The position numbers and the translations under genes are program-made. This document shows positions 27,613-64,000 of a stretch of 64,000 nt of DNA, in pieces; position 1 is the stretch's first letter, and each line of letters opens with the position of its first letter. Origin of the DNA: Chryseobacterium sp. (GTDB lineage: Bacteria > Bacteroidota > Bacteroidia > Flavobacteriales > Weeksellaceae); assembly GCA_031277615.1 (NCBI GenBank), contig JAITMC010000020.1, positions 62,001 to 126,000 of the forward strand. Direction: 5' to 3'. The notes below the pieces were generated by a model. That model ran no database searches and had not been told where the DNA came from. It saw only the letters and a list, made by a program, of their open reading frames with translations.

Positions 27613-30432
27613 TTAAAATGTTAAATTCATACCGAATGTATAGATAGCAGAAATCGGATAAATATTGTTATCAACACCCATCTGTACTCTATCCGTATTC
27701 ATAATCTCCGGTGAAAATCCGTTGTATTTAAAACTTGTCCAAGGGTTTTGTGCACTTACATATAATCTCAGTTTGGTGAGCAATAATGATTTTGCAAAAT
27801 CTTTAGGAAGATTATACCCCAATGTGATATTTCTGATTCTCAGATAACTTCCGCTTTCTACGAAAAAGCTGTTAGGTTTAATGATTTCCTGATTATTAGT
27901 CGTCATAGAATAGGAATTTGATGTACCCGGTCCTGTCCATCTGTTGTTATAGAAGTCCAGATCCCAGTTTTCGTTTCCAAAACGCTGTTCACGGTTGTAG
28001 TTATAGATTTTGTTTCCAAATACTCCCTGGAAATCTATGGCAAAATCAAAATCATATATGTTCAGGTTCACTCCGAATCCATAAGTTCCTTTTGGAATAG
28101 GGCTTCCCAGAAATGTTTTATCTCTGGAATCAATAACTCCGTTTCCATCAAGATCTGCAAATTTAAATCCTCCTTTCTGTGCTCCGTTCTGTTGTGCCCA
28201 ATTATTAACTTCTTCATCCGACTGGAAAATACCTGCGACCTGGAAACCATAGTATGAACCTACCGCCTGGCCTTTCTGTAATCTTACAATAGAGTTTCCG
28301 AACAAGCTTACTCCGGTGTTAAGGTAGGAACCTTCATATACAGAAGTGATCTCATTCTTAAGCGTGGTAAGATTTCCGTAAACTCCCAGTTTTATTTTAT
28401 CGTTTATTCGCGTGTCATAATTTACAGATACCTCGAAACCTCTGTTATTGAATGAATAAGCATTGGTTACGTAATTATTCCAGTTGCTAGCTCCTGATAC
28501 AGTTCCCTGTACAATACCATATACTACGTCTTTGGTATCTTTATCAAAGTAGGTTGCATCAATTTTAAGTTTATTGTTGAATAATGCCATTTCCAATCCA
28601 ATATCTCTACCGGTCGTGGTTTCCCAACCGATATTCGGATCGATAACACGGTCAATAGTCTGTGCTGGAGCACCAGAATCACCATAGTATGCACCGTCTT
28701 TAAAAATCGTAGTAACCAATGTGTAAGCTCTTGTTACGTCCGGATTACCCAGTTTTCCCCAGCTAGCTCTTAACTTTAATAAATTGAAAACATTCTGATT
28801 ACTCATAAAGTCCTCCTTGGAAATTACCCAACCTGCACTTACTGCCGGGAAAACTTTATAACGGTCTCCTGAAGAATATTTGGAAGTTCCATCTCTACGT
28901 AAAGACCCGTTGACCAAATATTTCCCTTTATAATTATAATTAATCCTCCCGAAGAAAGATTCAATTCTGTCCTGATAAGGAACAACATCATATCCTTCTA
29001 CATTATCCGTAACTTTCAGAATATCGGTACCATTAAAAATATTTAAGGAACCGTTCGTTCCGTCATATTTAACATTCAGTGCCTGTAGGTAAGTCTGCGA
29101 GTAGGAATTTCTTGTTCTTGAATATCCGGCAAGTACCTCAAGATTATGGCTGCCTAACGATTTTTTCCAGCTTAAAGTATTATCCCAGATATAGTTTCTG
29201 TTTTTTGAATCTCTTGTAATCAGCTTATTCGGTTTTTGGTCAGAAACAGGAACATATCCAAAAGTAGGAGTAAATTCGTATTGGCTTGTATTGTAATTAT
29301 CTGTGGTATAACTTACTTTAAAAGTAAAGTCTTTCAGGAATTTATATTCTGCCCAGATATTATTCAGCATTCTTTCCTGTCTGGTCTGTGAACGATACAG
29401 ATCCAATACGGCTCTCGGGTTGGGAATTGAGTATCCGTTAAAAAACTGATAGCTTCCGGTTTCCGGATTCATTACCGGGAAAATAGGAGGAGCATTGTAT
29501 GCATTCAGCAATGGATTTTTTGCCAGGTCAGTATGCATTTTAGAGAATGAAAAATTATCTCCGATCGTTAAATTATCCGTGATCTTATAACTTAGATTTA
29601 CTTTTGTATTAAACCTGTTGAATCCTGTTCCCGAATTAATTCCTTTTCCGGCTGCAAGGTTTCCTTCGTCCTGCAGATACCCCACACTTCCGTAATAATT
29701 AAGCTTTCCTAAGCTTCCGGATGCTGAAAAATCATTGGAGTTGATGATGCTTGTTCTGAAAATTTCTTTGAACCAATCTGTATCCGCTGGAAACTGGGAT
29801 CTGGAAATTGCTCCTTTAATATTACCGTTATCGTTCATAAGCTTTTCATTATAAAGCTCAATATACTGATCGGTATTAGCCATTTTAGGAATATTGGTTA
29901 CTGTTTTGATTCCTAAATATGAACTAAAGTTATAGACAGGCTTTCCTTTTCCTGATTTTGTTTTGATGATCACCGCACCATTGGATGCTCTTGCACCGAA
30001 AATCGCCAAACTGGAAGGATCTTTAAGAACACTCATGGATTCAATATCCTGAGGATTCAGGAATGAAATATCATCCGTAATCATCCCGTCTACTACAAAA
30101 ACGGTTTTTCCTGTCAGGGAACCTACCCCTCTGATATCTACTCTTGGAGAGGTTCCCGGAGTTCCTGAGTTTAGCACCTGAACACCGGATAATTTACCTT
30201 GAATAGAGCTCACCGGATTGGCATTAGGTTTATCTGCCAGGTCTTTTGCAGAAACCATGCCGATACTACCGGTCACGTTTTCTTTTTTCTGAGATCCATA
30301 CCCGATCAGAACTACTTCCTCGATCTTCTGCTCTTTGGCAGTGGTATCCTTTGGAGCAGTCTGCGCATTGACGTTCATACCGAAGTATAAAACGGCAATG
30401 AGGCATGAATACTTTAATTCACGTTGTTTCAT
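27613..30432 (-). CDS. susC: SusC/RagA-family TonB-dependent outer-membrane transporter
   Basis: A 939-residue receptor from the ATG at 30432 (a start 24 bases upstream, adding MYEIKLNY, is possible). After the signal peptide (ending MNVNAQ) there is no carboxypeptidase-regulatory-like domain: the plug begins at once with IEEVVLIGYGSQKKENVTGS, the SusC signature, then QGKLSGVQVLNSGTPGTSPR, VDIRGVGSLTG and VFVVDGMITDD. The rest is a 22-strand barrel ending PISAIYTFGMNLTF, with ADLDGNGVIDSRDKTFLG in the usual position. The missing N-terminal domain makes it shorter than the typical 1000-1100 residues. Its -7-like box TATTTTTG lies at 30516-30523 on this strand, without a good -33. Confidence 0.94.
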   Translation of the reverse strand: MKQRELKYSCLIAVLYFGMNVNAQTAPKDTTAKEQKIEEVVLIGYGSQKKENVTGSIGMVSAKDLADKPNANPVSSIQGKLSGVQVLNSGTPGTSPRVDIRGVGSLTGKTVFVVDGMITDDISFLNPQDIESMSVLKDPSSLAIFGARASNGAVIIKTKSGKGKPVYNFSSYLGIKTVTNIPKMANTDQYIELYNEKLMNDNGNIKGAISRSQFPADTDWFKEIFRTSIINSNDFSASGSLGKLNYYGSVGYLQDEGNLAAGKGINSGTGFNRFNTKVNLSYKITDNLTIGDNFSFSKMHTDLAKNPLLNAYNAPPIFPVMNPETGSYQFFNGYSIPNPRAVLDLYRSQTRQERMLNNIWAEYKFLKDFTFKVSYTTDNYNTSQYEFTPTFGYVPVSDQKPNKLITRDSKNRNYIWDNTLSWKKSLGSHNLEVLAGYSRTRNSYSQTYLQALNVKYDGTNGSLNIFNGTDILKVTDNVEGYDVVPYQDRIESFFGRINYNYKGKYLVNGSLRRDGTSKYSSGDRYKVFPAVSAGWVISKEDFMSNQNVFNLLKLRASWGKLGNPDVTRAYTLVTTIFKDGAYYGDSGAPAQTIDRVIDPNIGWETTTGRDIGLEMALFNNKLKIDATYFDKDTKDVVYGIVQGTVSGASNWNNYVTNAYSFNNRGFEVSVNYDTRINDKIKLGVYGNLTTLKNEITSVYEGSYLNTGVSLFGNSIVRLQKGQAVGSYYGFQVAGIFQSDEEVNNWAQQNGAQKGGFKFADLDGNGVIDSRDKTFLGSPIPKGTYGFGVNLNIYDFDFAIDFQGVFGNKIYNYNREQRFGNENWDLDFYNNRWTGPGTSNSYSMTTNNQEIIKPNSFFVESGSYLRIRNITLGYNLPKDFAKSLLLTKLRLYVSAQNPWTSFKYNGFSPEIMNTDRVQMGVDNNIYPISAIYTFGMNLTF

Positions 30433-30456
30433 ATAGTTCAATTTTATTTCGTACAA

Positions 30457-49627: not shown

Positions 49628-50294
49628 AAACGCAAAGATAATGTTTAGGCAATGGTGACTTTTAAGGGAGCGAAGAACACAATCAACTCCGTTGATCCGA
49701 TGAAGCGGGCGTTATATAATCCGGGTTTAATTAAAAGTTAAATGTGAGGACATCAACATCTACGCAAGCTGCCTGATCTGCGAGAATAAAAAAATAAAAA
49801 TCTGTGGGATGTGCGCGATCTGTGGGAAACTTTATTGATACTGTTTATGCTTTTTTGAAACGCAAAGATGATGCTTAGGCAATGGTGACTTTTTAGGGAG
49901 CGAAGATCAGAATCAACTCCGTTGATCCGATGAAGCAGGCGTTATATAATCCGGGTTTAATTAGACGTTAAATGTGAGGCCATCAACATCTATGGAAGCT
50001 GCCCGATCTGCGAGAATAAAAACATAAAAATCTGTGTTATCTGCGGGATCTGTGGGAAACTTTATCGATACTGTTTATGCTTTCTGAAACGCAAAGATGA
50101 TGCATAGGCAATAGTGACTTTTAAGGGAGCTAAGAAAAGAATCAACTCCGTTGATCCTATGAAGCAGGCGTTATATAATCCGGGTTTAATTAAAAGTTAA
50201 ATGTGAGGCCATCAACATCTACGAAAGCTGCCCGATCTGCGAGAATAAAAACATAAAAATCTGTGGGATCTGCGCGATCTGTGGGAAACTTTAT
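49628..50294. repeat. Tandem array of three ~230-bp composite units
   Basis: The gene-free stretch 49321-50355 is dominated by this array. The phrase AAACGCAAAG recurs at 49628, 49858 and 50087 (periods 230 and 229). Each unit has two halves. Half one carries CGCAAAGATGATG, GGCAATGGTGACTTTTAGGG and the hairpin ATCAACTCCGTTGAT with GATGAAGC, as in the 36-kb array. Half two carries CATCAACATCTA, GATCTGCGAGAATAAAA and ATCTGTG...GCGATCTGTGGGAAAC, similar in order to the reverse of the copies near 2 kb. No open frame spans it. The left 300 bases (49321-49620) are AT-rich and contain the TolC upstream region. Confidence 0.92.
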
Positions 50295-50308
50295 AACTTA
50301 TCATAAAA

Positions 50309-50334
50309 AAACTCCCCACATCAGCGGGGAGTTT
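50309..50334 (-). terminator. Terminator of the A2M-ecotin operon
   Basis: Perfect 9-bp stem AAACTCCCC/GGGGAGTTT (50309-50317, 50326-50334), 8-base loop, A-run on the left giving a minus-strand U-tract. It directly follows the ecotin stop. Confidence 0.85.
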
Positions 50335-50355: not shown

Positions 50356-50844
50356 TTATCTCTGAACTGCTTTTTTCATTTTGGTATCAGGACGTAAAAC
50401 TCTGTAACGAACCTCCAGATCTTTTGGTACGTAGAATACCATTGGCAGTTTACTGTTGTAGCCTACGGTTTCCGGTTTAAGGGTTACAAATTTTTTCGTC
50501 AGCTTCTGATCAGGACACGCCATTAAGGTACCGCCTGTTTCTCCTTTGGATTCCACTTCGTAATAGTTGTATCCCCATCCCTGAAGGTCCTGGGTTTTCA
50601 GTTCTCCCATTAAAAAGTGTTTGTTGCAATCAAGCATTTTTTCGGCTCCCACAAAAAATTCCACTTTTAAGTCGCTTTCATTTTTTGCAACAGGCAGTTG
50701 AATGTATACCTGTTTGTAACCTTCCTTAGCTTTTGGGAACATTTCAATTTCCAGCTTTTCAAACTTTTCAGCTTTCTTTTGTGCGAAAGCGTTTACTCCT
50801 GCAAGCATTACCAATCCTGTAATTAAAGTTTTTGAAAATCTCAT
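50356..50844 (-). CDS. eco: Ecotin, exported serine-protease inhibitor
   Basis: A 162-residue periplasmic inhibitor of S1-type serine proteases (trypsin, chymotrypsin, elastase). Signal peptide MRFSKTLITGLVMLAGVNAFA. The mature part matches ecotin: EIEMFPKAKEGYKQVYIQL, the fold-defining LDCNKHFLMGELKTQDLQGWGYNYYEVES, and YNSKLPMVFYVPKDLEVRYRVL. Cys73 and Cys110 correspond to the disulfide of E. coli ecotin. The reactive loop is TLMACPD; counting from the disulfide Cys, the P1 position that is Met84 in E. coli is Leu107 here, with Thr in P2. It follows two A2M genes in one transcript (43-base gap) and is ended by a terminator. Confidence 0.95.
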   Translation of the reverse strand: MRFSKTLITGLVMLAGVNAFAQKKAEKFEKLEIEMFPKAKEGYKQVYIQLPVAKNESDLKVEFFVGAEKMLDCNKHFLMGELKTQDLQGWGYNYYEVESKGETGGTLMACPDQKLTKKFVTLKPETVGYNSKLPMVFYVPKDLEVRYRVLRPDTKMKKAVQR

Positions 50845-50887
50845 TTTGTTTTATTTTAAAATTTTACTAGTTCCCTATAGCCAAAAA

Positions 50888-53800
50888 TCATTCCAAAATA
50901 GAAATCCCGGTTCCTTTTGTGTGCGCATTCATCTGTGGAGCGTAGTAATTCTGCATCGTGGTAATGCCATTGGAGAACTTTCCTGAGGCATTTGCAATCA
51001 CATCGTATTCAAACACATACTTCCCTTTCGGCATATACTGAATATAGAAGTTGGTAGAGGCGTCTTTGGTGGACTGATAATATCCTAAATTATTTTTCCA
51101 CTGGTAGCCTGACAATGCATCTACGGGTTCAAATCCGGCAGCACGCATGTCTTTAATATGAATAAATTCCATAGCACGGTCTGTATTCAGGATCATTCTT
51201 ACGGTTACTTTATCTCCAACTTTCAAAGGGGTTTCAGGGGAAATTTTCTGCAGTTCCTCCCCATTTACCGTTTTTATTTTTTTGTACAGCTCTTTGGTAA
51301 CTGCGATGTAGCTTTCCGAGGATTTTATTTTATCCAGATCTTCGTAATACTGCCAGAACAGGCCTCCCTGAACAATTCCGGGTCCCGGTTTGGTGATGGT
51401 AACCGTACTCAGGTTTTTGTCTACGGCATCTGTTTTCACAGTAGATTTCACATAACCGGTTGCCTGGGTTTGAGGGGTTATTTCTTTTCCGCCCCAGATA
51501 ATGGTGGCTTTATCGCTTTCTGCGCCGGTCCATGATTTCCCTGAATTCAGGATCGTGAAGATCACTTCTGAAGTTCCTCTTGAGCTTCCCCATGAGTTGA
51601 CTTCTTTCTGGGTTACCAGCCATATTTTCATGTCTTCAATGAATTTCTGATCATTGGCTTTAAGTGTATTGAACGCTTCCAGAGCTCCGGCATGGTTTAC
51701 CACTTTTGATCCGAACCATCCCCAGTCATTCAGGTTCTGCTTCCAGTAAACGCCCTGTGTTTTGGTATCGGTAGAAGTTTCTTTCAGATAGTTCATCAGT
51801 TTGTCTGATACGTCTTTCAAGCCGTAATCGTTCATCAGCAATGCGGCGCGGTGAAGACCGAAGAAAGTGAAGTCGGTGATCTTTGCTGTTTTTGCTTTTT
51901 GCTTTACCAATGATTTCAGTGTGGCTCCTTTTCCTTTTAAAGGATACTGCTGTTCCCAATAATTCCGGGTATCCAGATAATCCATGGTCCAGTTGTTCCA
52001 TACGTTTTCTTTTTTCACATCCCAGTATTTGCTTACTTCATTATCAACGTATTGAACCAGTTTTGCAACCAGTTCTTTCTGTTCTGTTCCCTGGTAATCT
52101 TTTACATTGTCTTTTAACCATGAATTGATTTTACCCAGGTTTTTAAGGATATATAAAGAGGTTCCGTATGAGCTTGGATATCCGGCATACCATGAGAACC
52201 CTCCGTCAGGATTCTGTAGTTTACGGAAATCATCCCAGCTCTGACTGATTGAATTTCTCATGGTATTCACATCAAATAACAGGGCCAGCTTCTGCATCTG
52301 CTCGCCTTCATTTTTACTTTCGAGCACCCAAGGGGTTTCTTCTAAAAGCAGCTGCTTCAGTTCCTGATTTTTTTCCAGGTTTGAATTCAGAAGGCCTTTG
52401 TTCTGGTATTCTTCAAATACAGTTTTCATTTTCGGATTGGCTCTGAAAATTTCCGATGCCAGCACATCTGCAAACCATTTATTGAAAACCACGTCAGCTG
52501 AATTATTCTGATCATTTTTCAGGCTCGGCAATGCAAACATAATTTCCCAGATCGGATTGGTCGTTAACTCTAATGTATTGGATACATTGGAAACGGTTGT
52601 TGAGTTTGTATTTTTAAGGTTATCGAGAACAAATGTTTTAGTTTCCCCTTCTTTTACAAAAACAGGAACGGCATCTGTTACCAGCATTCTGTTCGGAAGC
52701 ACGGCCACCGCCTGCTGTTCGCCATCTGAATAAGCTCCGGCTTTAGCCACCACTTTCATGATGATGGAGGAAACGTTATCGGGCACTTTCAGCTTCCATG
52801 TCAGGGCAGAATTTCCGTTTTCATTTAAGCTGAAATTCTGGGTTCCTGCACTGATTCCGAATTTTGAAGTGATGTTTTCGTTTGTGAAAGCATCCAGGAT
52901 CTGAAGTTCCGCAGAACCGCTTAATTTTTTATCGGTAAGATTGGAGAGTTTAGACTGAAGGTTCAGCTCATCCCCTTCTCTCAGGAATCTCGGATAATTT
53001 GGCGTTACAGAGAATTCTTTCTGGGTCACGACCTGTCTTTCCATAGTAGCCGCTCTTGCATCTTTGGTATGGGCCAGGAACATCAGCTTCCATTTCGTAA
53101 GGGCTTCGGGAGAAGTGAATTCAAAATGAACGTTTCCATCAGCATCGGTTTTCAGATCAGGATAGAAGAAAGCGGTTTCGTTCAGATTCTGGCGAACAGG
53201 AACTTTTTCCAGCTCTTCCACTCCTCCTGAATTGGCAGACTGTTCTTCCACTATTCCATCGGCGTTTGCGGCTACAGCCTGAGCAGTTACTTTCATCGAT
53301 CTTTTCTGCCCGTATCCTACCGTCACTACTTCTTCAATACTTGCTTCTTTCGCAATGGCAGCGCTTGGAGCAGGAAGTGCTCTTCCACGGATCAGCCGTG
53401 TATTTCCATATAAATCATTATCAAACCAGTTAAACTCCGGAATCTGAATAGATTTTCCGTTAAAATATTTTAATCTTTTCTGATAGTAGACCTGCTGCAG
53501 ATATTCTCTGATATCATAGGAAGTTACTACAGAATAAGGGCTATAAAGATTCTGCCAGCTGAAGGTATTTACGGCAAACTGATCCAGCGACATATCGTAC
53601 ATATTGGCCAGCACTTCAGCATTCACTTTTTCTTTATCACTTCCGGAAACTTTTACACTCCATTTTTCTTTGGAATTAGGTTCCAGCTTATCTCTGAACG
53701 TTACGGTTTCTATTTTCAGAGGCTGTTCCGCAGCTTTGATTTTCAGAATAACAGACTGGGTCTGAACATCATTGAAAGCCACAAGCTGAAACTGGATATT

Positions 53801-56761
53801 CAGAGCATTAATGCTTTTATCTTTAGGGATATCTGCTGTATATTCCAGCAATCCCTTTTTAAATTTATGGGTTTCTGAAACGGTTTTTCCGGTACCGTCC
53901 TGTACAAATACATTCACCAGGGCATCCGGTACTGCAGAATATACATAGATCTTCGCCTTCTCGCCTCTTGAGAATTCATTTTTAGGATCAATAACATTCA
54001 GGAAAGTTTTTTGTGAAGGTTTTAAAGCTCCTTTATCCCAGATACTGAAATTCTGGGAAGATTTTATGGTATCTTTTCCTTCTATATTGTAAAGTTCAAG
54101 CCGGTAATCGCCTGCTTCCAGTTTTCCCAGATCCAGTTCTGCCGATGGTGGCTGCTGTTTCTCCATCATCACTTTCTCTGTTTTCCAGTTTTTCATTTCA
54201 TCATCTTTATCAAAACGATCGTGAGGGAATTTGCTGATGAATTCCTGTTTTGAGTATTTCGGAAGATCCTGAACCGTGGATTCAAAGTTCTCTCTGAAGA
54301 TCCGGTCCGGAGCTGCCAGTCTGGAAAGCTTCACCTGATAGGATTTTTTCAGGTCCTGCCCGTTATAGTTTCGGGTTTCCACTTTCAGCTTTACATTTTC
54401 ATCGCTAAAGGTATTTTTAACCTCATCTGCCTGGATATAATGGGAAACGGAAGCTACTTTCAGCTGGGTATCGGCTGATTGGGTTTCTCCGTTGATATCG
54501 GTTACCGAAGCATTAATTTCATAATTATCAATCTGAATTCCGTCTAAGGTTTCATCTTTTTTAAGTTCCAGACGAATCACAAATTCTCCTTTTTCATTGG
54601 TTTTTGCTTCGCCCAGGATGGAATTTTCGTTATCGTCGCTTTGCGGATACCACCAGAAATATCTCCATCTGATGTTGTGTTTTTTAATTTCATAGTTCAC
54701 GACGGAATTGCTCAGAGCTACCCCGGAGAACATCATGGCCTTTCCTTTCAGCTCGATGGTCTGTCCGTATTTGTATTCATCTTTTACGGGATCAAAGGTC
54801 ACTTCAAATTTCGGCCTTTTATATTCTTCCACCCTGATATCTCTGTATCCCTGCGAATTCCCGTCTGTTCTAAGGTAAAAAACACCGTTCAGCTTTCCTT
54901 TCGGAAGGATAAAGCTTCCATGATAGGATCCGAATTCATTGGTTGTGAAATTCTGGAAAGAAACATCCTGTCCATTGGCATCCTGCAGGGTAATTTTCTG
55001 CTTTACACCGGCAGTTACGGATTCTATTTCCTTATCTATCCCGGTGTTGATCACTTTGAAATATACCGTTTGTCCCGGCCGGTAAATGGCTCTGTCGGTA
55101 AAGATCTGAGCTTTGGTGCGGGTCTGCTTATTCGGGTTATATTCTTCTGCATTACCACTGTTTCCGTAAACCTGCATCATCTGGAAATCGTTGGTCTTCG
55201 GCTGGCGGATCAGGAAGGTTCTGTAATATTCTTTACTGGCTGTGGAAGGGAATTTGAAAACGCCGTTCTCACCGGTTTTACCATCTATTTTATTGAGTGT
55301 TTTATTGGAAACAAATTCATAGAAAGCAAGACCTTCATTGGCTGCAGGTTTACCGTTTTCACTGCTCACCAGCTTCATTTCGTTGGAAAGCTGGTTACGG
55401 TCTGTTTTGTTCTGATAGATGATCCTGTTTCCGGAAACCAGAAAATAGAAATTCTGTCTGGCCTGATCACTGCTGTTGGTATCTGATCCGGCTACAGCAT
55501 ATTCAGCCACATAAATTCCTGACGGAAGCGGCTTGATCTCCAGGGATGTTTTATGACTCTGATAATCGCCGGCATCGGTAAGCTGGAAGGTTTCCTTTCT
55601 TACCTGATTTTTTTTGATTTTGCTGAAGGTATTGTTGTAGCTGCTCTGTACATATTGCATGAACGGAGTAAAATCTTCTTTCACCTCATAAATATTCAGC
55701 GAGAATTCTGATACGTTTTTATGTTCCGCAACGATATGAATGGGAAGATTGCTCTGCGTCTGCTGCTCATATCTGATCGTCAGTAACGGATTGGTAATCT
55801 GATTTTCTTTGTTTTTAATATTTTCAAGGAAAAGGGATTTCGGATATTGCTTTTTGGCCTGATCTGCAACCGCCAAAGCCTCTTTCACTTTCTTTTTGGT
55901 GATAAGCTCACTCATGATTTCGTCCATAATCACGACTTTATAATCACCTTCCGTATCTGATTTCAAAAGGTTCTGAAGCTGTTCAAGTCTGTCTTTACAA
56001 CGGGTGTAGTTACAGTTTTCGGACAGCTTTTCCTTCATGAAATAGAGTTTTGGATTCCCGGTATTCAGGGCAATCAGCTCATCAAAAACCGTATTGATCT
56101 TTTTCCTGTTTTCTGCCAGCTCATTTTTGGTAAAGGGACCTTTTTCTGAAAGAAAAGCTATTTCTTTGAGCCCATACCAGTCAAAAAGAGTCGGGAAATA
56201 GGCAATATCCGTTGCTCCTGTAAATATATCTTTGTATTTCTCCAGGGAAATATTTTTCATTTCCTGTTTTCTGCCATCCAGTTCCTGATAGCTTTTGGAA
56301 AGATAATTTTTAAAATCGAGCCTGCTCCACGTTTCGATCTGCGACAGGTCCTGTGAATTGATATTGGTTCTGCCGTCGATCTGCCATGAATTTCTTCTGT
56401 AATAGTCCAGAAAAAACTCATTCGTCATCACCCTGAATACCAGCTGTTGCTCTCCCTTCAAGCCGGCTTCGGTGGACTGAATTTTTTTGAAGAACTTGGA
56501 GGCCGCATCATTTTTATCATCGTCTACGGTTTGGTTGACGATGCTGAATTCCGCTTTCAGGGAACGGATCAGCTGAAGTACGTTATTTTCTTTCATGGCG
56601 TGGTTTTGTATGTCTAAAATAATGGGAAGATTGGATTTGTAAGTGCCTTTGGTACTATTTTCCGTGATCTTCTTCCATTGTCCGTCGTAATACTGTTGTG
56701 CCTGTATTTTAGGGTAAAAGCTAAAACACAGCAACATCATTAATAGCTTGACATTTCTCAT
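50888..56761 (-). CDS. Alpha-2-macroglobulin family protein, copy 1 (SusC-like motif in bait region)
   Basis: A 1957-residue exported protein (signal peptide ending KIQAQ, no lipobox). After an N-terminal helical/MG-like part, the MG2 domain starts FTDRAIYRPGQTVYFK near residue 554. The A2M domain begins near residue 1190 (LNETAFFYPDLKTDADG). The thioester domain lacks the CxEQ signature: the equivalent stretch reads LPSLKNDQNNSADVVFNKW (about residue 1405-1425), with Asp-Gln-Asn-Asn in place of Cys-x-x-Gln. The bait segment between FNWFD (about 1109) and RQNLNETAFF is unusual: it carries IEEVVTVGYGQKRSMKV (from residue 1142), the plug signature of SusC-type receptors. It lies 11 bases past copy 2. 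Confidence 0.9.
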   Translation of the reverse strand: MRNVKLLMMLLCFSFYPKIQAQQYYDGQWKKITENSTKGTYKSNLPIILDIQNHAMKENNVLQLIRSLKAEFSIVNQTVDDDKNDAASKFFKKIQSTEAGLKGEQQLVFRVMTNEFFLDYYRRNSWQIDGRTNINSQDLSQIETWSRLDFKNYLSKSYQELDGRKQEMKNISLEKYKDIFTGATDIAYFPTLFDWYGLKEIAFLSEKGPFTKNELAENRKKINTVFDELIALNTGNPKLYFMKEKLSENCNYTRCKDRLEQLQNLLKSDTEGDYKVVIMDEIMSELITKKKVKEALAVADQAKKQYPKSLFLENIKNKENQITNPLLTIRYEQQTQSNLPIHIVAEHKNVSEFSLNIYEVKEDFTPFMQYVQSSYNNTFSKIKKNQVRKETFQLTDAGDYQSHKTSLEIKPLPSGIYVAEYAVAGSDTNSSDQARQNFYFLVSGNRIIYQNKTDRNQLSNEMKLVSSENGKPAANEGLAFYEFVSNKTLNKIDGKTGENGVFKFPSTASKEYYRTFLIRQPKTNDFQMMQVYGNSGNAEEYNPNKQTRTKAQIFTDRAIYRPGQTVYFKVINTGIDKEIESVTAGVKQKITLQDANGQDVSFQNFTTNEFGSYHGSFILPKGKLNGVFYLRTDGNSQGYRDIRVEEYKRPKFEVTFDPVKDEYKYGQTIELKGKAMMFSGVALSNSVVNYEIKKHNIRWRYFWWYPQSDDNENSILGEAKTNEKGEFVIRLELKKDETLDGIQIDNYEINASVTDINGETQSADTQLKVASVSHYIQADEVKNTFSDENVKLKVETRNYNGQDLKKSYQVKLSRLAAPDRIFRENFESTVQDLPKYSKQEFISKFPHDRFDKDDEMKNWKTEKVMMEKQQPPSAELDLGKLEAGDYRLELYNIEGKDTIKSSQNFSIWDKGALKPSQKTFLNVIDPKNEFSRGEKAKIYVYSAVPDALVNVFVQDGTGKTVSETHKFKKGLLEYTADIPKDKSINALNIQFQLVAFNDVQTQSVILKIKAAEQPLKIETVTFRDKLEPNSKEKWSVKVSGSDKEKVNAEVLANMYDMSLDQFAVNTFSWQNLYSPYSVVTSYDIREYLQQVYYQKRLKYFNGKSIQIPEFNWFDNDLYGNTRLIRGRALPAPSAAIAKEASIEEVVTVGYGQKRSMKVTAQAVAANADGIVEEQSANSGGVEELEKVPVRQNLNETAFFYPDLKTDADGNVHFEFTSPEALTKWKLMFLAHTKDARAATMERQVVTQKEFSVTPNYPRFLREGDELNLQSKLSNLTDKKLSGSAELQILDAFTNENITSKFGISAGTQNFSLNENGNSALTWKLKVPDNVSSIIMKVVAKAGAYSDGEQQAVAVLPNRMLVTDAVPVFVKEGETKTFVLDNLKNTNSTTVSNVSNTLELTTNPIWEIMFALPSLKNDQNNSADVVFNKWFADVLASEIFRANPKMKTVFEEYQNKGLLNSNLEKNQELKQLLLEETPWVLESKNEGEQMQKLALLFDVNTMRNSISQSWDDFRKLQNPDGGFSWYAGYPSSYGTSLYILKNLGKINSWLKDNVKDYQGTEQKELVAKLVQYVDNEVSKYWDVKKENVWNNWTMDYLDTRNYWEQQYPLKGKGATLKSLVKQKAKTAKITDFTFFGLHRAALLMNDYGLKDVSDKLMNYLKETSTDTKTQGVYWKQNLNDWGWFGSKVVNHAGALEAFNTLKANDQKFIEDMKIWLVTQKEVNSWGSSRGTSEVIFTILNSGKSWTGAESDKATIIWGGKEITPQTQATGYVKSTVKTDAVDKNLSTVTITKPGPGIVQGGLFWQYYEDLDKIKSSESYIAVTKELYKKIKTVNGEELQKISPETPLKVGDKVTVRMILNTDRAMEFIHIKDMRAAGFEPVDALSGYQWKNNLGYYQSTKDASTNFYIQYMPKGKYVFEYDVIANASGKFSNGITTMQNYYAPQMNAHTKGTGISILE

Positions 56762-56772
56762 CTGTTATCTGT

Positions 56773-59700
56773 TTATTTTTTTATTTCTAATTTATCTCCT
56801 TTCGTTCTTGCGTTCATCTGAGGGGCATAATAATTCTGTAAAGTGGCAAAACCGTTTGAGAAACTTCCTGAAGCGTTGCATACCAGATCATATTCAAATA
56901 CATATTTCCCTTTCGGCATATAATAAATATAGAAGTTGGTGGAAGCATCTTTGGTGGTCTGATAATACCCCAGATTATTCTTATACTGATACCCGGAAAG
57001 CACATCCACAGGCTCCAGTCCGGCTGCCCTCATGTCTTTCAGGTGAACATACTGCATCGGACGGTCCGTATTCAGGATCATCCTTACGGTAAGGCGGTCT
57101 CCTACGGTGAGCGGACTGTTGTCTGTAATCTTCACGAGTTCTTCACCGTTTGTTGTTTTTATCTTCTTATAATATTCTCTTGTCATGGAAAGGTAGGTTT
57201 CTGTAGATTTCACATTTTCAAGGTTCTCGTAATACTGCCAGAACAATCCACCTTGTGCAATTCCCGGGCCGTATTTTGTTACGGTAACTTCAGCGAGCTT
57301 TTTATCGACCTTATCAGAGCTGATGGTCTGCTTCAGATAACCTGTTGTTTTGGTTTGTGGAACGACTTCTTTTCCGCCCCAGGTTACGGTGGCCTTATCT
57401 GCTTCCGGAGTGGTCCATGATTTTCCGGAATTCATCAGGGTGTAAATAACTTCGGCTGTCGTTCTGGAATTTCCCCATGAATTGGTTTCTTTCTGTGTGG
57501 CAAGCCATACTTTGGATTCTTCAATAAAGTTAACATCTTCCGGCGTCACTTTACTGATGGCTTCTATAGCTCCGGCATGGTTAACCGCCTTAGATTCATA
57601 CCAGCCCCAGTCATTGAGGTTCTGCTTCCAGTAAGCGCCCTGCGTTTCTGAAGCAACAGAGGTTTCTTTAAGATACTTAATCAGCTTTCCGGAGGTGTTT
57701 TTCAGTCCGTAACTATCATAGATAAGGGCTGCCCTGTGAAGACCGAAGAAGGTAAAATCTGTGATCTTAAATTGCTCTGCCCTTGTGATAATATTCTGTT
57801 TAAGACTTGCTCCGGTTCCCCGCAGCGGATATTCTTTTTCCCAATAGCGTCTTGCATCCAGATAATCCAGTGCAAAGTTACTCCATGGGGTGTTTTCATT
57901 TTCTTTCCAGTGGGTAGCCAGCTCCCTGTCGATATAATAAATCAGGGAAAAGACCATCTCCTGCTGCCCGGATTGGTACTGCGATATTCGTCCTTTCAGC
58001 CACTCATTCATTTTCCCGAGATTCCGGAGAATGTATAATGAGGAAACATAGGAGCTTCGGTATCCCGGCAGCCACGGAAAGCCTCCGTCTCCGTTCTGAT
58101 ACCGTAAAAGGAACTTCCAGTCACTGTTGATGGATTTTATCATTGTATTGACATCAAAAAGTCTTGAGATGTTGTTCATGGTTTCTGTTTCAGACTGGGC
58201 ATTCAGCACCCAGGGCGTTTCTTCCATCAGCACCTGTTTAAGTTCCTGGTTTTTCTCCAGATTGCTTTTCAGGAGGTCTGCACTTTTGTACTCATCAAAA
58301 ACGGCTTTCATTCTTGGATTGGCCCTAAAGACTTCGGTTCCTACAACATCTGCAAACCATGTATTGAATATGGCATCGGAAGTGATATTGAGGCCCTGGC
58401 TCAGATCCGGAAGGGCAAAAAGGATCTCCCAGATTGGGTTGGTCTTTACTTCCAGGGTATTTCTGATATTTTCAATGGTTGAAGAGTTGTTATTTTTAAG
58501 GTTCTGAAGGGTAAATGTTTTGGTCTGTCCTTCTTTCACAAAAATCGGAACGGCATCTGTTACCATCATTCTGTTGGAAAGCACGGCAACAGGAATCTGT
58601 TCTCCGTCAGAATACTCACCGGCTTTTGCCACCACTTTGATGATGATGGATGAAGCTTTATTGAACGGGGTTCTGATCTTCCAGCTGATCACAGCATTTC
58701 CGCTATTTTTTACTTCAAAATTCTGTACTGCCGATTCTATTCCGAATTGCTTTGAAATATCTTCGTTGGTTTCGGCATTGAGGATCTGCAGAGAAGCAGC
58801 TCCGGACATGGCTTTATCCGTAAGGTTGGATATTTTAGTCTGGAAATTCAGCTCGTCCCCTTCTCTCAGGAATCTCGGGTAATTCGGATTCACAGAGAGT
58901 TTCTTTTGGGTAATGATGTCTTTTTCCAGCACTGCCGTCCTCAGATCTACGGTGTGGGCAAGGAACATCAGTTTCCATTTGGTGAGGGCTTCCGGGGTTG
59001 TAAATTCAAAGCTTATATTTCCCTGGGCATCGGTTTTCAGATCCGGATAGAAAAATGCGGTTTCATTAAGGTTCTTACGGGCCTGCACTTCGTTAAGATC
59101 TTCTTTCTGCTTTTCTTCCGGTGCTTTATCCTTTTTATTGGAAAGCCCCATTTTATCTTCCCCTTCAAATCGCCCTTTTTCACGGGCAGAACTACTTACG
59201 CTTTCAGCGACTGCCATCTGAGTATTGTATGCAGGACAGCCATTGAGAGAAGCGATTCCCGGAACGGTAGGACACTGATCTTTCATATCGTCAACCCCAT
59301 CACCGTCCATATCTGTCGTCAGCCCGTATTTCACCAGAAGCTTGTAAAATACATCTTCATCAAACCAGTTGAATCTTGGAAGGTAGATTCCTTTAGTTTC
59401 CAGATAATTAACTTTCTGGTACCATTCCAGGGTTTGGGTCAGATTATAGATATTGTAGTCTTCTATAGGAGTTGCCGGCCTGTAATATTTTATAAACTCA
59501 TAGGTATTCGGAACGAATTTATCCAGAGATTTATCATACATATTGGCCAGTACTTCGGCAATCACTTTTTCATTGTTCCTGCCTGAGATCTTAACGCTCC
59601 ATTTTTCTTTAGTGCCAGGTTCTACTTTATCCCTGAAGGTTGTCAGTTCAATTTTCAAAGGATCTTTTTCTTCTTTAACATTGATCCGCACAAATTGATT

Positions 59701-62679
59701 CTGCATATCGTTATAATAAGCCAGAACAAACTGAACATTGTATTTTGTGATATTTTTTTCATGGGAAACCGGGAAAGTATAGGTAAGCATTCCGTTGGTC
59801 ATTTTCCGTCTTTCCATTGTTTTTTTCCCCTGCCCATCCTGAAAATAAATATTCACAGAAGCGTCGGGAACCGCTGAATAAGCATAAATAACAGCCTGAG
59901 AGCCCCTCACGACCTCATCTTTCGGACCTACAACCTTCAGAAAAGGAAACTGATTTTTTCCGAGTTTCTTTTGACTCCATACTTCAAAGTCCTGCTCTGA
60001 TTTTATGGTGTCTTTGCCTTCAATATTATATACCTGAAGCCTGTAATCTCCCGGTTCAAGCATACCCAGATTCAGTTCTTTACCTTCTTTGGTTCCATCA
60101 ATCACCGTTCTCAGGATTTCCCAGTTTTTACGATTTTCAGACTGATCATAGCGGTCATGCGGAAACTTTTTCAGGAATTCTTTTTTTGACATTTTCGGAA
60201 GGGTCTGCACCATGTATTCAAAATTACTCCTCAGAACCCGCTCCGGCTGCTTCAGCTGAACAAGTTTTACTTTGTAATTTTTGGTAACGGGAACATCATT
60301 GTAGTTGTAGGCAGTCACTTTGATTTTCAGGTCATTTTCTGCGAGTGTCTCCTTTATTTCATCGGCTTTCAGATAATGGGAAACTGAAGCCACTTTCACA
60401 TCGGTTTCTGCGGACTGGGTTTCCCCATTGATGTCTGTAAGAGATGTTTTTATTTTATAATTATGAACCTGAATCCCCTGGGTGTTATCATCTTTTTTAA
60501 GATCAATCTTAATGACAAATTCTCCTTTTTCATCGGTTTCGGTTTTTCCCACGATGGAGTTTTCATTGCTGTAACTTTCGTACGGATACCACCAGAAATA
60601 CCTTTGACGGATATTCTCTTTTTTTATTTCATAGTCAACAGAAGTTTTGCTCAGGGGAATTCCGGAGAAAGTAACGGCTTTCCCTTTCAGCTCAATAATT
60701 TCTCCGTACTGATAATCTTTTTTGATGGTATCAAAAGTGATCTCAAATTTGGGACGCTTATATTCTTCTACAGAAAAATATTTAGAATCACTGATGTGTC
60801 TACTTGCATAATTACCGGAAACGACCAGCCTGAACTGACCATTCAGCCTGTCTTTTGGTAAAACAAAACTTCCGCTGTAAGACCCGAATGCATTGGTAGT
60901 GAACTTTTGAGTACTGACGACCTGGCTATTGGCATCATACAGACTTACCGTCTGCTCGTGATTCACCAGAAGCTTTTCTGTTTTTTTCTCAATATCCGGA
61001 AAAGTGGAAATAGCTTTAAAATACACGGTCTGTCCCGGTCTGAAAATCTGGCGGTCCAGGAAAAGCTGGGTATGCGGATAATCATTTTCATAAGAATATG
61101 CAAAATAGGCGGCCTTTACAATATTGTAATTATTTTCTGCCGGATCATAAATCATGTACCGATAGTCACGATAATCATTTTTTTCAGAAGGAAATCTGGC
61201 CAGGTTATCCGTTTCAATCATGAGCTGGGTTTCATCGATTCCGGAGTAATCCCGAAAATGCCATTTATAAAGTCTGGTATTAGCTTTCAGTTTTCCATTT
61301 TGCCGGTCAACCAGCATATGATCCTTTTTTTCATCGTAAACAACTCTTGAAGAGGTCATGATGAATATAAACTGTGAAATTTCCTTACCATTGATACACT
61401 CTCCAATGTATACTCCTTTAGGAAGTCCTTTCATTTCAAGGGCTGTACTGTATCGCTGGTAATCTTTTTTGATGGGAAGGGTAAAAGTGTCTGTCCTTAC
61501 CAGAGTCTTATTCACTTTTTTATATTCTTCGTCATCATTAAGGTATCTTGCCTCATACGATAGGCTCCCTAGATATTGCAGTTGATTTTTAACATCATTT
61601 ACCTGGTATATCTTAAGGGTAAAACGGTCTGTATTTTTATGGGTAGCCACGATCTGAACGGGCTTCCCGGGCTCGTTATGCGTTTCAAGGAAAAGTGAAA
61701 GAGTTGCTGCTTTTATTTGATTTTCCTGCTGGATAATATTGCTCAGGAATTTTGAATCAGGATATTCTTTCTTCATCCTGTCTATCAGATCTACAGCCTG
61801 TGTAAATTTTGATTTGGTATTTAATTCACCCACTATATTTTTTACGATCAAAATCTTGTAATCTCCTTTTACCGGGGAATTTACCAATGCGATCTGCTTG
61901 TCCGGAAATTTCTCATCTTTTTTGATCGTATTTTCAAAAATCAGTTTCTGGTGCTGGAAATAGAGTTTGGAATTGCCTGCGTTAAAATCAATCAGGTTCT
62001 GATATAAGGCCAGAATGACGGGCTGGTTTTCCTTTAATTCCTCTTTAGTGAAAATATTGCTGTTGTTGAGAAAATCAATATTCTTTTTAACTTTCCAATC
62101 ATAAAGTGAAGGAAAAAACTGAAAATCCCGTTCCTCTTCAAAAGCATTTTTATATTTCTCCATCTTTATTTTTCTTAGCATATCGTCAACGGCAGTCAGT
62201 TCTGCGAATTGCTTCAGGTAAAAGTTTTTGAAGTCGAGATTCGTCCACGACTCTATTTCTGAAATATTTCCGTTATCTACATTTGTCCGCTTCCGGATGT
62301 CCCATTTTTTAAGCTCATAATAATTCTCAAAAAATTCAATCTCCAGAACTTTGAAGAAGAGCAGATCCTCATTTTTCAACCTTTTCTCCATATTCGTGAT
62401 CTTGGAAAAGAAAACAGAGGCATAGTCGTTTTTCGGATCATCCTGAGTCGCTTTATAGACCCCAAATTCGGCTTTGAGCGATCTGATGATCTCCGTAGTA
62501 TTGTTTTCTTTTACCGCTTGGTCCTGAATCTCAAGGATAAGAGGCAGGTTGGATTTGAAAGTTCCATCCTTGTAGCTTTCCGCAATTTTCTTCCACTGTT
62601 CATCATAAAACGTCTGTGCCTGAGAAAACAGACACAAAAAAACAAAAAAGAGGAGCACACATTTGGAGATGATTTTCAT
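56773..62679 (-). CDS. Alpha-2-macroglobulin family protein, copy 2 (TSP3-like repeat in bait region)
   Basis: A 1968-residue paralogue of copy 1, first gene of the operon. Signal peptide MKIISKCVLLFFVFLCLFSQAQ, no lipobox. MG2 starts LFLDRQIFRPGQTVYFK (about residue 537); the A2M domain begins LNETAFFYPDLKTDAQG (about 1200). The thioester segment is LPDLSQGLNITSDAIFNTW (about 1420-1440), again without Cys or Gln-Gln. The bait segment between FNWFDED (about 1101) and RKNLNETAFF is about 90 residues long and holds DMDGDGVDDMKDQCPTVPG (about 1121-1140), the Asp-rich calcium-binding thrombospondin-type-3 repeat found in OmpA-like proteins, then a Lys/Glu-rich stretch. It shares operon and architecture with copy 1; identity is high outside the bait. 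Confidence 0.9.
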   Translation of the reverse strand: MKIISKCVLLFFVFLCLFSQAQTFYDEQWKKIAESYKDGTFKSNLPLILEIQDQAVKENNTTEIIRSLKAEFGVYKATQDDPKNDYASVFFSKITNMEKRLKNEDLLFFKVLEIEFFENYYELKKWDIRKRTNVDNGNISEIESWTNLDFKNFYLKQFAELTAVDDMLRKIKMEKYKNAFEEERDFQFFPSLYDWKVKKNIDFLNNSNIFTKEELKENQPVILALYQNLIDFNAGNSKLYFQHQKLIFENTIKKDEKFPDKQIALVNSPVKGDYKILIVKNIVGELNTKSKFTQAVDLIDRMKKEYPDSKFLSNIIQQENQIKAATLSLFLETHNEPGKPVQIVATHKNTDRFTLKIYQVNDVKNQLQYLGSLSYEARYLNDDEEYKKVNKTLVRTDTFTLPIKKDYQRYSTALEMKGLPKGVYIGECINGKEISQFIFIMTSSRVVYDEKKDHMLVDRQNGKLKANTRLYKWHFRDYSGIDETQLMIETDNLARFPSEKNDYRDYRYMIYDPAENNYNIVKAAYFAYSYENDYPHTQLFLDRQIFRPGQTVYFKAISTFPDIEKKTEKLLVNHEQTVSLYDANSQVVSTQKFTTNAFGSYSGSFVLPKDRLNGQFRLVVSGNYASRHISDSKYFSVEEYKRPKFEITFDTIKKDYQYGEIIELKGKAVTFSGIPLSKTSVDYEIKKENIRQRYFWWYPYESYSNENSIVGKTETDEKGEFVIKIDLKKDDNTQGIQVHNYKIKTSLTDINGETQSAETDVKVASVSHYLKADEIKETLAENDLKIKVTAYNYNDVPVTKNYKVKLVQLKQPERVLRSNFEYMVQTLPKMSKKEFLKKFPHDRYDQSENRKNWEILRTVIDGTKEGKELNLGMLEPGDYRLQVYNIEGKDTIKSEQDFEVWSQKKLGKNQFPFLKVVGPKDEVVRGSQAVIYAYSAVPDASVNIYFQDGQGKKTMERRKMTNGMLTYTFPVSHEKNITKYNVQFVLAYYNDMQNQFVRINVKEEKDPLKIELTTFRDKVEPGTKEKWSVKISGRNNEKVIAEVLANMYDKSLDKFVPNTYEFIKYYRPATPIEDYNIYNLTQTLEWYQKVNYLETKGIYLPRFNWFDEDVFYKLLVKYGLTTDMDGDGVDDMKDQCPTVPGIASLNGCPAYNTQMAVAESVSSSAREKGRFEGEDKMGLSNKKDKAPEEKQKEDLNEVQARKNLNETAFFYPDLKTDAQGNISFEFTTPEALTKWKLMFLAHTVDLRTAVLEKDIITQKKLSVNPNYPRFLREGDELNFQTKISNLTDKAMSGAASLQILNAETNEDISKQFGIESAVQNFEVKNSGNAVISWKIRTPFNKASSIIIKVVAKAGEYSDGEQIPVAVLSNRMMVTDAVPIFVKEGQTKTFTLQNLKNNNSSTIENIRNTLEVKTNPIWEILFALPDLSQGLNITSDAIFNTWFADVVGTEVFRANPRMKAVFDEYKSADLLKSNLEKNQELKQVLMEETPWVLNAQSETETMNNISRLFDVNTMIKSINSDWKFLLRYQNGDGGFPWLPGYRSSYVSSLYILRNLGKMNEWLKGRISQYQSGQQEMVFSLIYYIDRELATHWKENENTPWSNFALDYLDARRYWEKEYPLRGTGASLKQNIITRAEQFKITDFTFFGLHRAALIYDSYGLKNTSGKLIKYLKETSVASETQGAYWKQNLNDWGWYESKAVNHAGAIEAISKVTPEDVNFIEESKVWLATQKETNSWGNSRTTAEVIYTLMNSGKSWTTPEADKATVTWGGKEVVPQTKTTGYLKQTISSDKVDKKLAEVTVTKYGPGIAQGGLFWQYYENLENVKSTETYLSMTREYYKKIKTTNGEELVKITDNSPLTVGDRLTVRMILNTDRPMQYVHLKDMRAAGLEPVDVLSGYQYKNNLGYYQTTKDASTNFYIYYMPKGKYVFEYDLVCNASGSFSNGFATLQNYYAPQMNARTKGDKLEIKK

Positions 62680-62697: not shown

Positions 62698-63453
62698 ATG
62701 AATGTTTTAAAAATACTCAAAAAATATGTTATAGACAGCCAGCTCTATGTGTCTTTAATGGGAACTCTTTTTGCAGTATTTTTTATGAAGGAGCAACATA
62801 CCTTCCGTTTCCCTTCTGTACTGCTGATTTTTATTACGTATTTCAGCGGTTACCTGTATACAAAATACCAGTATACGAAACATTTTCTTAAAATCGTAGT
62901 CCTGAATGCCATAGCCGGAATCGTCTGCGCTTTCCTGATCATTCACAACCATAATGAGATCAGGCTTCTGAAATGGTTCATTATTGTGGTGCTTGGGCTG
63001 CTCTACAACAGTTTTTTCCTTGATGTTTATATCCGGAAGATCCCGTTGCTTAAAGTTTTTTATGTGGGACTGGTATGGGCGTTGGTGAACTGCTGGCTGA
63101 CCCTTCATGAGTTCAGCCTGCCTATTTTCCTGATCAGCTTCTTTTTTATCACAGCATTGGTTCTGCCTTTTGATATCCGCGATATGAATGTGGATACGGT
63201 AAAGACCTTTCCCCAGATGATAGGCGTTCAGAATACAAAGTACATTGCCTATGTGCTCATTTTTATCAGCTGTGTGATTTCTGTTTTTTATCTCAAGCCT
63301 TTGTATGCCCTGGCATTTTTTCTTTCCGGTATTGTTGCTTATATTTTTATTTATTTCGCTGAAAATAAAAGAGATGACCTCTATTTTTCTTTCGGCGTGG
63401 AAACCTGTTCAGCACTTCCTTTTTTATTTTTACTAATAATGGAGTATTTTTGA
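62698..63453 (+). CDS. UbiA-like prenyltransferase-family membrane protein
   Basis: A 251-residue polytopic protein with about eight hydrophobic helices, arranged like UbiA prenyltransferases. The second Asp-rich motif is seen as LPFDIRDMNVDTVKTFPQMIG (DxxDxxxD), typical of the family. The first motif, NDxxDxxxD between helices two and three, is absent: the corresponding loop reads GYLYTKYQYTKHF. The enzyme would therefore lack part of the usual Mg-pyrophosphate site, and its activity is uncertain; it may be a Bacteroidetes-specific branch. recF follows 3 bases later, so they are read together, while the A2M operon diverges. Confidence 0.75.
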   Translation: MNVLKILKKYVIDSQLYVSLMGTLFAVFFMKEQHTFRFPSVLLIFITYFSGYLYTKYQYTKHFLKIVVLNAIAGIVCAFLIIHNHNEIRLLKWFIIVVLGLLYNSFFLDVYIRKIPLLKVFYVGLVWALVNCWLTLHEFSLPIFLISFFFITALVLPFDIRDMNVDTVKTFPQMIGVQNTKYIAYVLIFISCVISVFYLKPLYALAFFLSGIVAYIFIYFAENKRDDLYFSFGVETCSALPFLFLLIMEYF

Positions 63454-63456
63454 CGA

Positions 63457-64000
63457 ATGATTATCAAGAAGCTTAGTCTTTACAATTTCAAAAACCATTC
63501 GGAGAAGAAATTTGAGTTCTCCCCGCAGATCAACTGTTTTGTAGGGAACAACGGTGCCGGAAAAACCAATATTCTGGATGCCCTGCATTATCTGTCGGTA
63601 GGTAAAAGCTTTCTGGGCAACACCGATGCTAATAATATTAAACAGGATGAAGATTTTTTCACCATTGATGCTGAGATCCTGAATGAAGACAGTGAAGATG
63701 TCATTAAAATTTCCCAACCCAAAGAGGCTAAAAAAATCATTAAAAAGAATGATAAAAGCTACGACAGGCTCGCCGATCATATCGGATATCTGCCCAGTGT
63801 GATGATCTCACCCTATGATTCCAATCTTATTTCAGATTCGGGGGAAAGCCGCAGAAAATTCCTGGATTCCATGATCTCTCAGACAGATTCGGGGTATCTT
63901 TTTGACCTGATCCAATATCAGAAAACGATACAGCAAAGAAATGCCCTGCTTAAATATTTTGCCAAAAACAGAATCTGGGACAAAGATTCACTGGACATTT
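63457..64000 (+). CDS. recF: DNA replication and repair protein RecF (5' part, cut by window end)
   Basis: The first 181 codons are in the window, with no stop. The start MIIKKLSLYNFKNHSEKKFEF is typical of RecF. The Walker A P-loop is GNNGAGKTNIL (residues 30-40), followed by ALHYLSVGKSFLG. The RecF-specific stretch VMISPYDSNLISDSGESRRKFLDSMISQ (about residues 117-144) is clear. RecF loads RecA at gapped DNA with RecO and RecR. A full protein of about 360 residues is expected beyond position 64000. It follows the UbiA-like gene by 3 bases and is far from dnaN and dnaA, unlike the classic dnaA-dnaN-recF order. Confidence 0.95.
   Translation, partial: MIIKKLSLYNFKNHSEKKFEFSPQINCFVGNNGAGKTNILDALHYLSVGKSFLGNTDANNIKQDEDFFTIDAEILNEDSEDVIKISQPKEAKKIIKKNDKSYDRLADHIGYLPSVMISPYDSNLISDSGESRRKFLDSMISQTDSGYLFDLIQYQKTIQQRNALLKYFAKNRIWDKDSLDI

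Follow-up and report, generated by a model that had tools for sequence, protein, structure and literature searches.

A Chryseobacterium locus of alpha-2-macroglobulins and ecotin with an exchangeable, possibly self-mimicking bait region

Introduction

The locus described here lies in a stretch of 64,000 nt from Chryseobacterium sp. (assembly GCA_031277615.1, contig JAITMC010000020.1, positions 62,001 to 126,000), in the following referred to as the window, and encodes two large proteins of the alpha-2-macroglobulin (A2M) family, A2Ma (copy 1) and A2Mb (copy 2), followed by the protease inhibitor ecotin. A reading based on the sequence alone had placed these three genes on the minus strand, with gaps of 11 nt between the A2M genes and 43 nt between A2Mb and ecotin and with a single terminator after ecotin, all of which was borne out (Table 1). 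To this we add a comparison across the genus, in which the bait region emerges as the sole hypervariable stretch of an otherwise conserved A2Mb and is found to consist largely of segments related to envelope proteins, which may act as decoys for proteases.

Table 1. Features of the locus and its surroundings, in window positions
Feature	Positions	Strand	Remarks
A2M copy 1 (A2Ma)	56773..62679	-	1968 aa; no CXEQ; optional upstream copy
Bait region of copy 1	59083..59370	-	aa 1104-1199; placed by alignment with copy 2
TSP3 cassette, OmpA-type, in copy 1 bait	59233..59313	-	aa 1123-1149
A2M copy 2 (A2Mb)	50888..56761	-	1957 aa; no CXEQ; genus-wide copy
Bait region of copy 2	53201..53431	-	aa 1111-1187; hypervariable
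SusC Ton-box-like cassette in copy 2 bait	53297..53344	-	aa 1140-1155; local alignment with window SusC
Ecotin	50356..50844	-	162 aa; P1 Leu; Pfam and NCBIfam
Intrinsic terminator after ecotin	50309..50334	-	terminator-like stem, 11 pairs
SusC/RagA receptor (SusC reference; donor type, outside the locus)	27613..30456	-	TIGR04056, 690 bits
UbiA-like gene, divergent neighbour	62698..63453	+	18 nt from A2M copy 1; PF01040 E=8.3e-5, 22.4 bits, below cut-off 34.2
recF, runs off the window	63457..63999	+	TIGR00611, 177 bits

In both A2M copies, which are 51% identical to each other, the MG2, A2M and bMG10 domains score above the curated Pfam cut-offs. Ecotin is recognized by Pfam (PF03974, E=6.9e-42) and by the NCBIfam ecotin equivalog (PRK03719, 168.5 bits, cut-off 162), and is at most 91% identical to the ecotins of relatives (80 Chryseobacterium loci kept of 120 relatives). 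All three proteins start with signal-peptide-like N-termini, as judged by eye, which suggests a periplasmic location for the A2Ms.

Genomes and loci compared

The genus sample comprises 148 Chryseobacterium genomes, with ecotin matches in 115 and bMG10 matches in 147. Regions were taken from 141 of them, around the canonical ecotin match or else around the listed A2M match, and 140 were analysed (G147 was left out). A full-length A2Mb is present in 130; the others are two loci without an A2M (G026, G078), two with an A2M of another subfamily (G066, G115), five with a fragmented gene (G037, G062, G092, G118, G127) and one cut by a contig end (G135).

Results

The A2Ms lack the thioester motif

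None of the 14 A2Ma and 130 A2Mb sequences carries the CXEQ thioester motif, which is also missing at the aligned site, and a single lipobox pattern likewise matched none of them. In the terms of PMC5764988, the absence of CXEQ makes these A2Ms Type II-like. A structure model of the A2M core (aa 540-1320), for which the window sequence and 27 of the 56 listed segments served as input, reached a mean pLDDT of 58.7 and a pTM of 0.37. The bait appears in it without helix or strand at a pLDDT of about 23-32, although the low confidence is not confined to the bait and covers model residues 506-664 and 691-742; an unstructured bait is likewise described for published A2Ms (PMC4498604). The best Foldseek match of the model is native Escherichia coli A2M (5a42, E=4.8e-19), followed by complement proteins. 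TM-scores are 0.16-0.28 in the 50 rows listed, since the packing of the domains in the model is poor; given these scores and the pLDDT, the fold match rests on the macroglobulin (MG) domains.

The bait is the only hypervariable region of A2Mb

Over the 130 aligned A2Mb sequences, mean column identity is 0.77. It drops to 0.44-0.49 in the 60-residue blocks at aa 1081-1200, where the bait lies, and is at least 0.64 in every other block, making the bait the sole hypervariable stretch. The variation is present even between close relatives: among 52 genome pairs whose backbones share 95% identity or more, the baits are less than 60% identical in 56%, a level to which control windows wholly outside the bait fell in 0% of the same pairs. 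C. shigense and C. carnipullorum (G046, G067), for example, are 96.8% identical in the backbone and 46% in the bait. Between C. limigenitum, which has a GldN-type bait, and G122, with a TSP3-type one, the corresponding figures are 96.7% and 39%. Accordingly, bait identity follows backbone identity poorly, with a Spearman coefficient of 0.38 as compared to 0.62-0.83 for seven control windows.

Bait cassettes resemble segments of envelope proteins

When two baits were searched against three genomes, one genome at a time, they matched, besides A2Ms, proteins of 279 and 312 aa. Pieces of the G091 bait match the TonB of the same genome (E=4.2e-10 and 4.1e-4), and the G145 bait matches its own GldN (E=2.8e-8). 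Family models confirmed these donors as a TonB-family protein (TIGR01352, PF03544) and the ring protein GldN of the type IX secretion system (T9SS; TIGR03523, E=6.1e-52).

For a strict classification, a bait had to align with the one reference of each donor at a score above every shuffled score, while TSP3 cassettes were assigned by pattern. By this measure, 47 of the 130 baits match TonB, 24 GldN and 19 SusC, and 10 contain TSP3 repeats; eight control proteins from the window, put to the same test, matched between 0 and 3 baits each. In total, strict assignments cover 90 baits. Looser patterns, written after the baits had been inspected, find a cassette in 124 of the 130, compared with 8 in shuffles. 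The matched donor segments are confined to TonB aa 81-206, GldN aa 89-179 and SusC aa 23-86. In the window itself, the bait of copy 2 aligns with the Ton-box region of the window's SusC at a score of 88, the highest shuffled score being 59. For copy 1, the whole protein matches an OmpA-family chain in the PDB (5wtl, E=2.9e-6), and the Pfam model TSP_3 reaches E=0.001 and 19.1 bits, below its cut-off of 25; elsewhere, the repeats of one bait of the TSP3 type hit an OmpA-family chain with E=1.6e-30.

The cassettes occupy two slots: a SusC plug, the second part of TonB or TSP3 comes first, followed by a Ton box, the first part of TonB or GldN. This order, which is kept in 76 of 82 slot pairs, reverses that within TonB and SusC. 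One way to read the cassettes is docking, where they would bind partners, e.g. a Ton box the C-terminal domain of TonB, and thereby station the A2M at Ton, SusC or T9SS complexes for local protection. The Ton-box-like sequence found by a loose pattern in 41 of 130 baits, as opposed to 0.6 in shuffles, is in keeping with this. However, the TonB linker, GldN and TSP3 share the same two slots although they are not known to have a partner in common, and swaps between very similar A2Ms would shift the docking site abruptly; we consider docking very doubtful.

SusC-plug-like sequence is also found beyond A2Ma and A2Mb. The CXEQ-bearing subfamily of G066 and G115 carries a SusC-plug-like bait, as judged by eye for G115 and supported in G066 by TIGR04056 (E=7e-10) and a SusC homolog in the PDB (1.9e-4). 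A third A2M-like frame of the source genome, 1521 aa long and located on contig C20, matches bMG10 just above the cut-off and the SusC plug with E=3.7e-48. A second frame on C20, of 767 aa, has a SusC match that spans model positions 76-208 only; the coordinates noted for the pair are G000:C20:502-3036 and C20:9300-9683.

In tandem loci, TSP3 is present in the copy 1 bait of 14/14 and in the copy 2 bait of 0/14. The notion that tandem baits are complementary finds no backing in this distribution: with TSP3 in only 11/130 copy 2 baits overall, its absence from those in tandem loci lacks significance (Fisher p=0.61). The G096 locus (L228) has a copy-1-like A2M (52% identity, TSP3 bait) downstream of A2Mb, with no ecotin among the matches listed.

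Cassettes turn over rapidly and are partly constrained

On a FastTree phylogeny of the backbone, GldN cassettes require 22 changes for 24 carriers (22.3 when shuffled), TSP3 cassettes 10 changes for 10 carriers (9.8) and SusC cassettes 16 changes for 19 carriers (18.1). The control traits yield 7 changes for 14 carriers (13.5) for the presence of A2Ma and 10 changes for 105 carriers (23.1) for that of ecotin. GldN and TSP3 cassettes are thus as scattered over the tree as shuffled ones, whereas both controls retain phylogenetic signal. Noise in the classification, at the strict threshold used, may account for part of the cassette turnover. Taken at the level of sequence, these comparisons demonstrate that the bait is a mosaic, that its cassettes are swapped and related to the donors, and that cassette residues are retained.

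For the relation to the donors, we compared 20 TonB and 20 GldN genes chosen from genomes with such baits, plus those of G145. The donor from the same genome has a mean protein rank of 8.2 out of 21 for TonB and 6.6 out of 21 for GldN, where 11 would be expected. This is slightly better than chance, and shared descent alone could account for it. At the DNA level, baits are about 70-91% identical to their own donors over 33-102 nt. Recent self-copying of a donor into the bait was considered as a source of the cassettes and is unsupported, given that other genomes supply closer donors. Plain decay of the bait is a less likely explanation of its divergence, given that residues are retained at much-diverged synonymous sites, although ascertainment bias applies here.

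A proposed role of the bait as an exchangeable decoy

We lean towards the view that this is an exported anti-protease locus, built on a thioester-less, Type II-like A2M with an exchangeable decoy bait that mimics the cell's own proteins. Its core would be one such A2M, usually followed by ecotin, and A2Ma would be an older duplicate kept in a minority of species, including that of the window. The A2M would act as a bait-triggered, non-covalent trap, presumably in the manner of MagD, in that it would close on a protease once its disordered bait has been cut. The cassettes would imitate the TonB linker, the Ton box and plug of SusC, GldN and the TSP3 linker of OmpA-type proteins, such that a protease attacking these envelope machines would encounter its target sequence again in the bait, thereby springing the trap. 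Cassettes would be swapped between species, most simply via recombination at the conserved borders of the bait, paired A2Ms with unlike baits (TSP3 in copy 1) could widen the coverage, and ecotin would add a direct block of chymotrypsin-fold serine proteases. For the more specific proposal, that the cassettes are self-decoys, i.e. swappable copies of protease-exposed Ton, SusC, OmpA and T9SS segments that form a shared and shuffled repertoire against envelope-attacking proteases, the arguments appear to us evenly balanced. We infer that proteases would be captured by mimicry and that selection would maintain the cassettes for this likeness.

Several observations weigh against the decoy. TonB cassettes keep some phylogenetic signal, with 26 changes for 47 carriers compared with 38.5 in shuffles. 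The own donor not being the closest, the baits are not fresh copies of self genes and do not clearly track them. Strict donors are lacking for 40 of the 130 baits, and family models are weak on the short SusC-like baits (E=0.11 for window copy 2 and 0.016), which have no Pfam match. The location of the A2Ms rests on signal-peptide-like starts and one non-matching lipobox pattern. Finally, dN/dS is 0.26 in the bait as compared to 0.04-0.07 in three other stretches, measured over 34 orthologous-bait pairs that were also picked by likeness, and this value could reflect either relaxed constraint or selection in favour of change. The cassette-to-cassette dN/dS of 0.15 for both GldN and TonB, next to 0.09 and 0.12 in the respective donor genes, is biased low because cassettes were recognized by protein similarity. 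The bait is constrained, but far less than the rest of A2Mb.

Alternatively, the bait may be a tolerated insert, which need only be exported, soluble and disordered, and into which fragments of common envelope genes would enter by illegitimate recombination, to spread between species and persist because they do no harm, with a likeness that has no function. The faster evolution of the bait protein, the weak preference for own donors and the baits without a strict donor all speak for it. Yet a small set of donors, and of segments within them, turns up repeatedly, the two slots are fixed in an order opposite to that of TonB and SusC, and residues of GldN and TonB cassettes are kept, with nonsynonymous divergence (pN) of 0.19-0.21 against synonymous divergence (pS) of 0.64-0.67, albeit biased by the way cassettes were found. 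On balance, we regard a tolerated insert as unlikely.

If the bait is a decoy, the proteases it targets may be those of predators, competitors, a host or the bacterium itself. In the last case, ecotin and A2M would guard the periplasm from premature activity of proteases that the cell itself exports or keeps in the periplasm. Chryseobacterium is a strong protease secretor, and GldN, assigned to its family by a model, has a role in the system exporting such enzymes. Still, fast turnover between sister species would suit a changing outside threat better than a fixed set of own enzymes, and self-protection strikes us as rather improbable.

Canonical ecotin is nearly always linked to A2M in the genus

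Canonical ecotins (at least 89 bits) occur in 114 genomes of the genus and lie downstream of an A2M, on the same strand and within 3 kb, in 112 of them (110 among the matches listed, with G003 and G062 added from reading the loci). The two unlinked ones belong to G026 and G078. A further 17 divergent ecotin matches of 31-61 bits, e.g. G092:C1:2855823-2856185, are found in 16 genomes, with no A2M nearby among the matches listed. Far from being peculiar to one strain, the set of ecotin and A2M recurs as a neighbourhood across the genus and is thus real rather than a product of chance. In the G062 locus (L195; genome completeness 75%), A2M, TolC, recF and GldN are each broken into several frames, more likely by sequencing error than by decay.

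Outside the genus, the picture is different. Ecotin was found in 20 of 296 genomes at the order level, 3 of them non-Chryseobacterium, and in 5 of 395 at the phylum level, with 1 non-Chryseobacterium, and none of these four genomes links it to an A2M: G303 has no A2M at all, G290 and G392 carry theirs on other contigs, and in G420 the genes are 1.5 Mb apart. A general bacterial ecotin-A2M system is therefore unsupported beyond Chryseobacterium (0/4; Proteobacteria were not searched). According to PMC9904509, Bacteroidetes ecotins are nested among proteobacterial ones, which is read there as horizontal transfer.

An upstream A2Ma is found in 15 of 140 loci, full-length in 14 and fragmented in one, and in 14/14 the gap between the two A2Ms is -1 to 14 nt. 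The stacked module suggested by the sequence-only reading thus persists in part: two unrelated inhibitor families are conserved side by side within the genus, but a pair of A2Ms is not what recurs as a unit, and the arrangement is absent from the four ecotin genomes outside it.

The usual order in the loci read is recF-UbiA, divergent from (A2Ma), A2Mb and (ecotin). A UbiA-like gene stands beside 110 of 111 ecotin-A2M loci; its start and that of the A2M, pointing in opposite directions, are 18 nt apart in 111 of 135 loci measured, which would place the promoter of the A2M within the UbiA-like gene. Downstream of ecotin, 77 of 111 loci have a TolC/HlyD/ABC set, and TolC is found in 0/27 A2M-only loci; ecotin and the exporter may hence have come or gone together. 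In the window, a 230-nt direct repeat in three tandem copies (49621-50309; 92% and 89% identical to the reference) sits between ecotin and the TolC-HlyD-ABC genes.

The distance between A2M and ecotin is below 60 nt in 70 of 111 loci; another 35 have gaps of 120-250 nt, and in 6 (G018, G081, G082, G135, G136, G139) the gap measures 250 nt or more. A terminator-like hairpin lies within this gap in 21 loci, among them that of C. culicis with its gap of 150 nt, and at most 150 nt after ecotin in 102. In the window, the strongest terminator-like site is that after ecotin and the two gaps contain none, although the terminator scan as a whole was no richer than in shuffles (13 versus 14.6). Promoter scans of the window were near chance, both for sigma-70 (39 versus 30.7 in shuffles, standard deviation 5.7) and for a Bacteroidota-type pattern (5 versus 3.7). 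A single transcript in the window is likely. With 41 of 111 gaps of at least 120 nt and hairpins in 21, however, a single operon is not general, and the suggested operon without internal terminators probably holds for the window and not for the genus: it is the adjacency that is conserved, and not the single transcript.

Ecotin and A2M might be neighbours by history only, with ecotin having arrived once behind an ancestral A2M and stayed there by descent, without a joint function. The restriction of the link to one genus, the hairpins between the genes and the likewise conserved UbiA-like neighbour all agree with this, which we take as a serious, though not the likelier, possibility. On the other hand, 112 of 114 ecotins are linked though the next downstream genes differ, and ecotin duplicates remain behind the A2M in four genomes.

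These duplicates are tandem arrays of 2-4 copies in G105 (L236), G130 (L259), G084 (L217) and G089 (L221). At the position that we take to be P1, 109 of the 118 readable ecotins have Leu, 4 have Met, 3 have Asn and 2 have Lys; the Cys motif is present in 119/119 copies and the reactive-loop motif in 118/119 (broken in G060). To judge from its residue, a Leu at P1 would fit targets of the chymotrypsin or elastase type. All copies with Asn or Lys are in tandem arrays (G084, G105, G130), which suggests a diversification of targets.

Discussion: comparison with known systems

A2M and ecotin inhibitor families are among the most abundant in prokaryotes, as stated in the available part of PMC12620975, which does not link the two; the near-fixed pair described here joins them in one genus. 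Should the baits indeed copy attacked proteins, their sequences would name the targets, i.e. TonB, SusC, OmpA and GldN, and what bacterial A2Ms defend against would become testable via proteases that cut those segments. The literature searched, with most subscription papers and all preprints out of reach, yielded no description of a self-mimicking, exchangeable A2M bait and no paper joining macroglobulins or the bait region with TonB, the plug domain or Bacteroidetes; in the part of PMC12939704 available, Chryseobacterium is mentioned solely for a tick A2M.

Among the closest known systems is MagD of Pseudomonas aeruginosa, a Type II A2M of the mag operon which, according to PMC5764988, is reported to trap a protease non-covalently without a thioester. 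It shares with the A2Ms described here the A2M domains, a bait and the lack of CXEQ. By contrast, the nearest neighbours identified at our locus are recF, the UbiA-like gene, ecotin and the TolC/HlyD/ABC set, its bait is pieced together from shuffled, self-like fragments of envelope proteins, and its A2M is usually followed by ecotin. The usual order leaves no room beside the A2M for the six-gene mag operon, the genes of which were not searched for with profiles.

Type I A2Ms, such as ECAM of E. coli and Sa-A2M of Salmonella, are related in fold, native ECAM (5a42) being the best match of the A2M core model, but differ from the A2Ms described here in that the latter have neither a thioester motif nor a lipobox match. 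ECAM is reportedly a lipoprotein. No gene for PBP1c (pbpC) was identified right beside the locus, and the remainder of the window was not scanned for it.

The ecotin resembles known ecotins (family I11; PMC12620975) in its family model score, its Cys motifs and its signal-peptide-like start. Whereas E. coli ecotin has Met at P1, ecotins of the type found at this locus mostly have Leu, and in some tandem copies Asn or Lys.

The insect thioester-containing proteins (TEPs) and the thioester proteins of Daphnia also vary mostly near the bait. The present case differs from these animal proteins in being bacterial and in varying through swaps of cassettes whose self donors can be identified. If our reading is correct, it would represent a bacterial protease trap that works on the principle of an integrated decoy and in which sister species can be seen to have exchanged cassettes. 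The novel element would then be a bait built of exchangeable, self-like cassettes, whose natural alleles provide a ready experiment.

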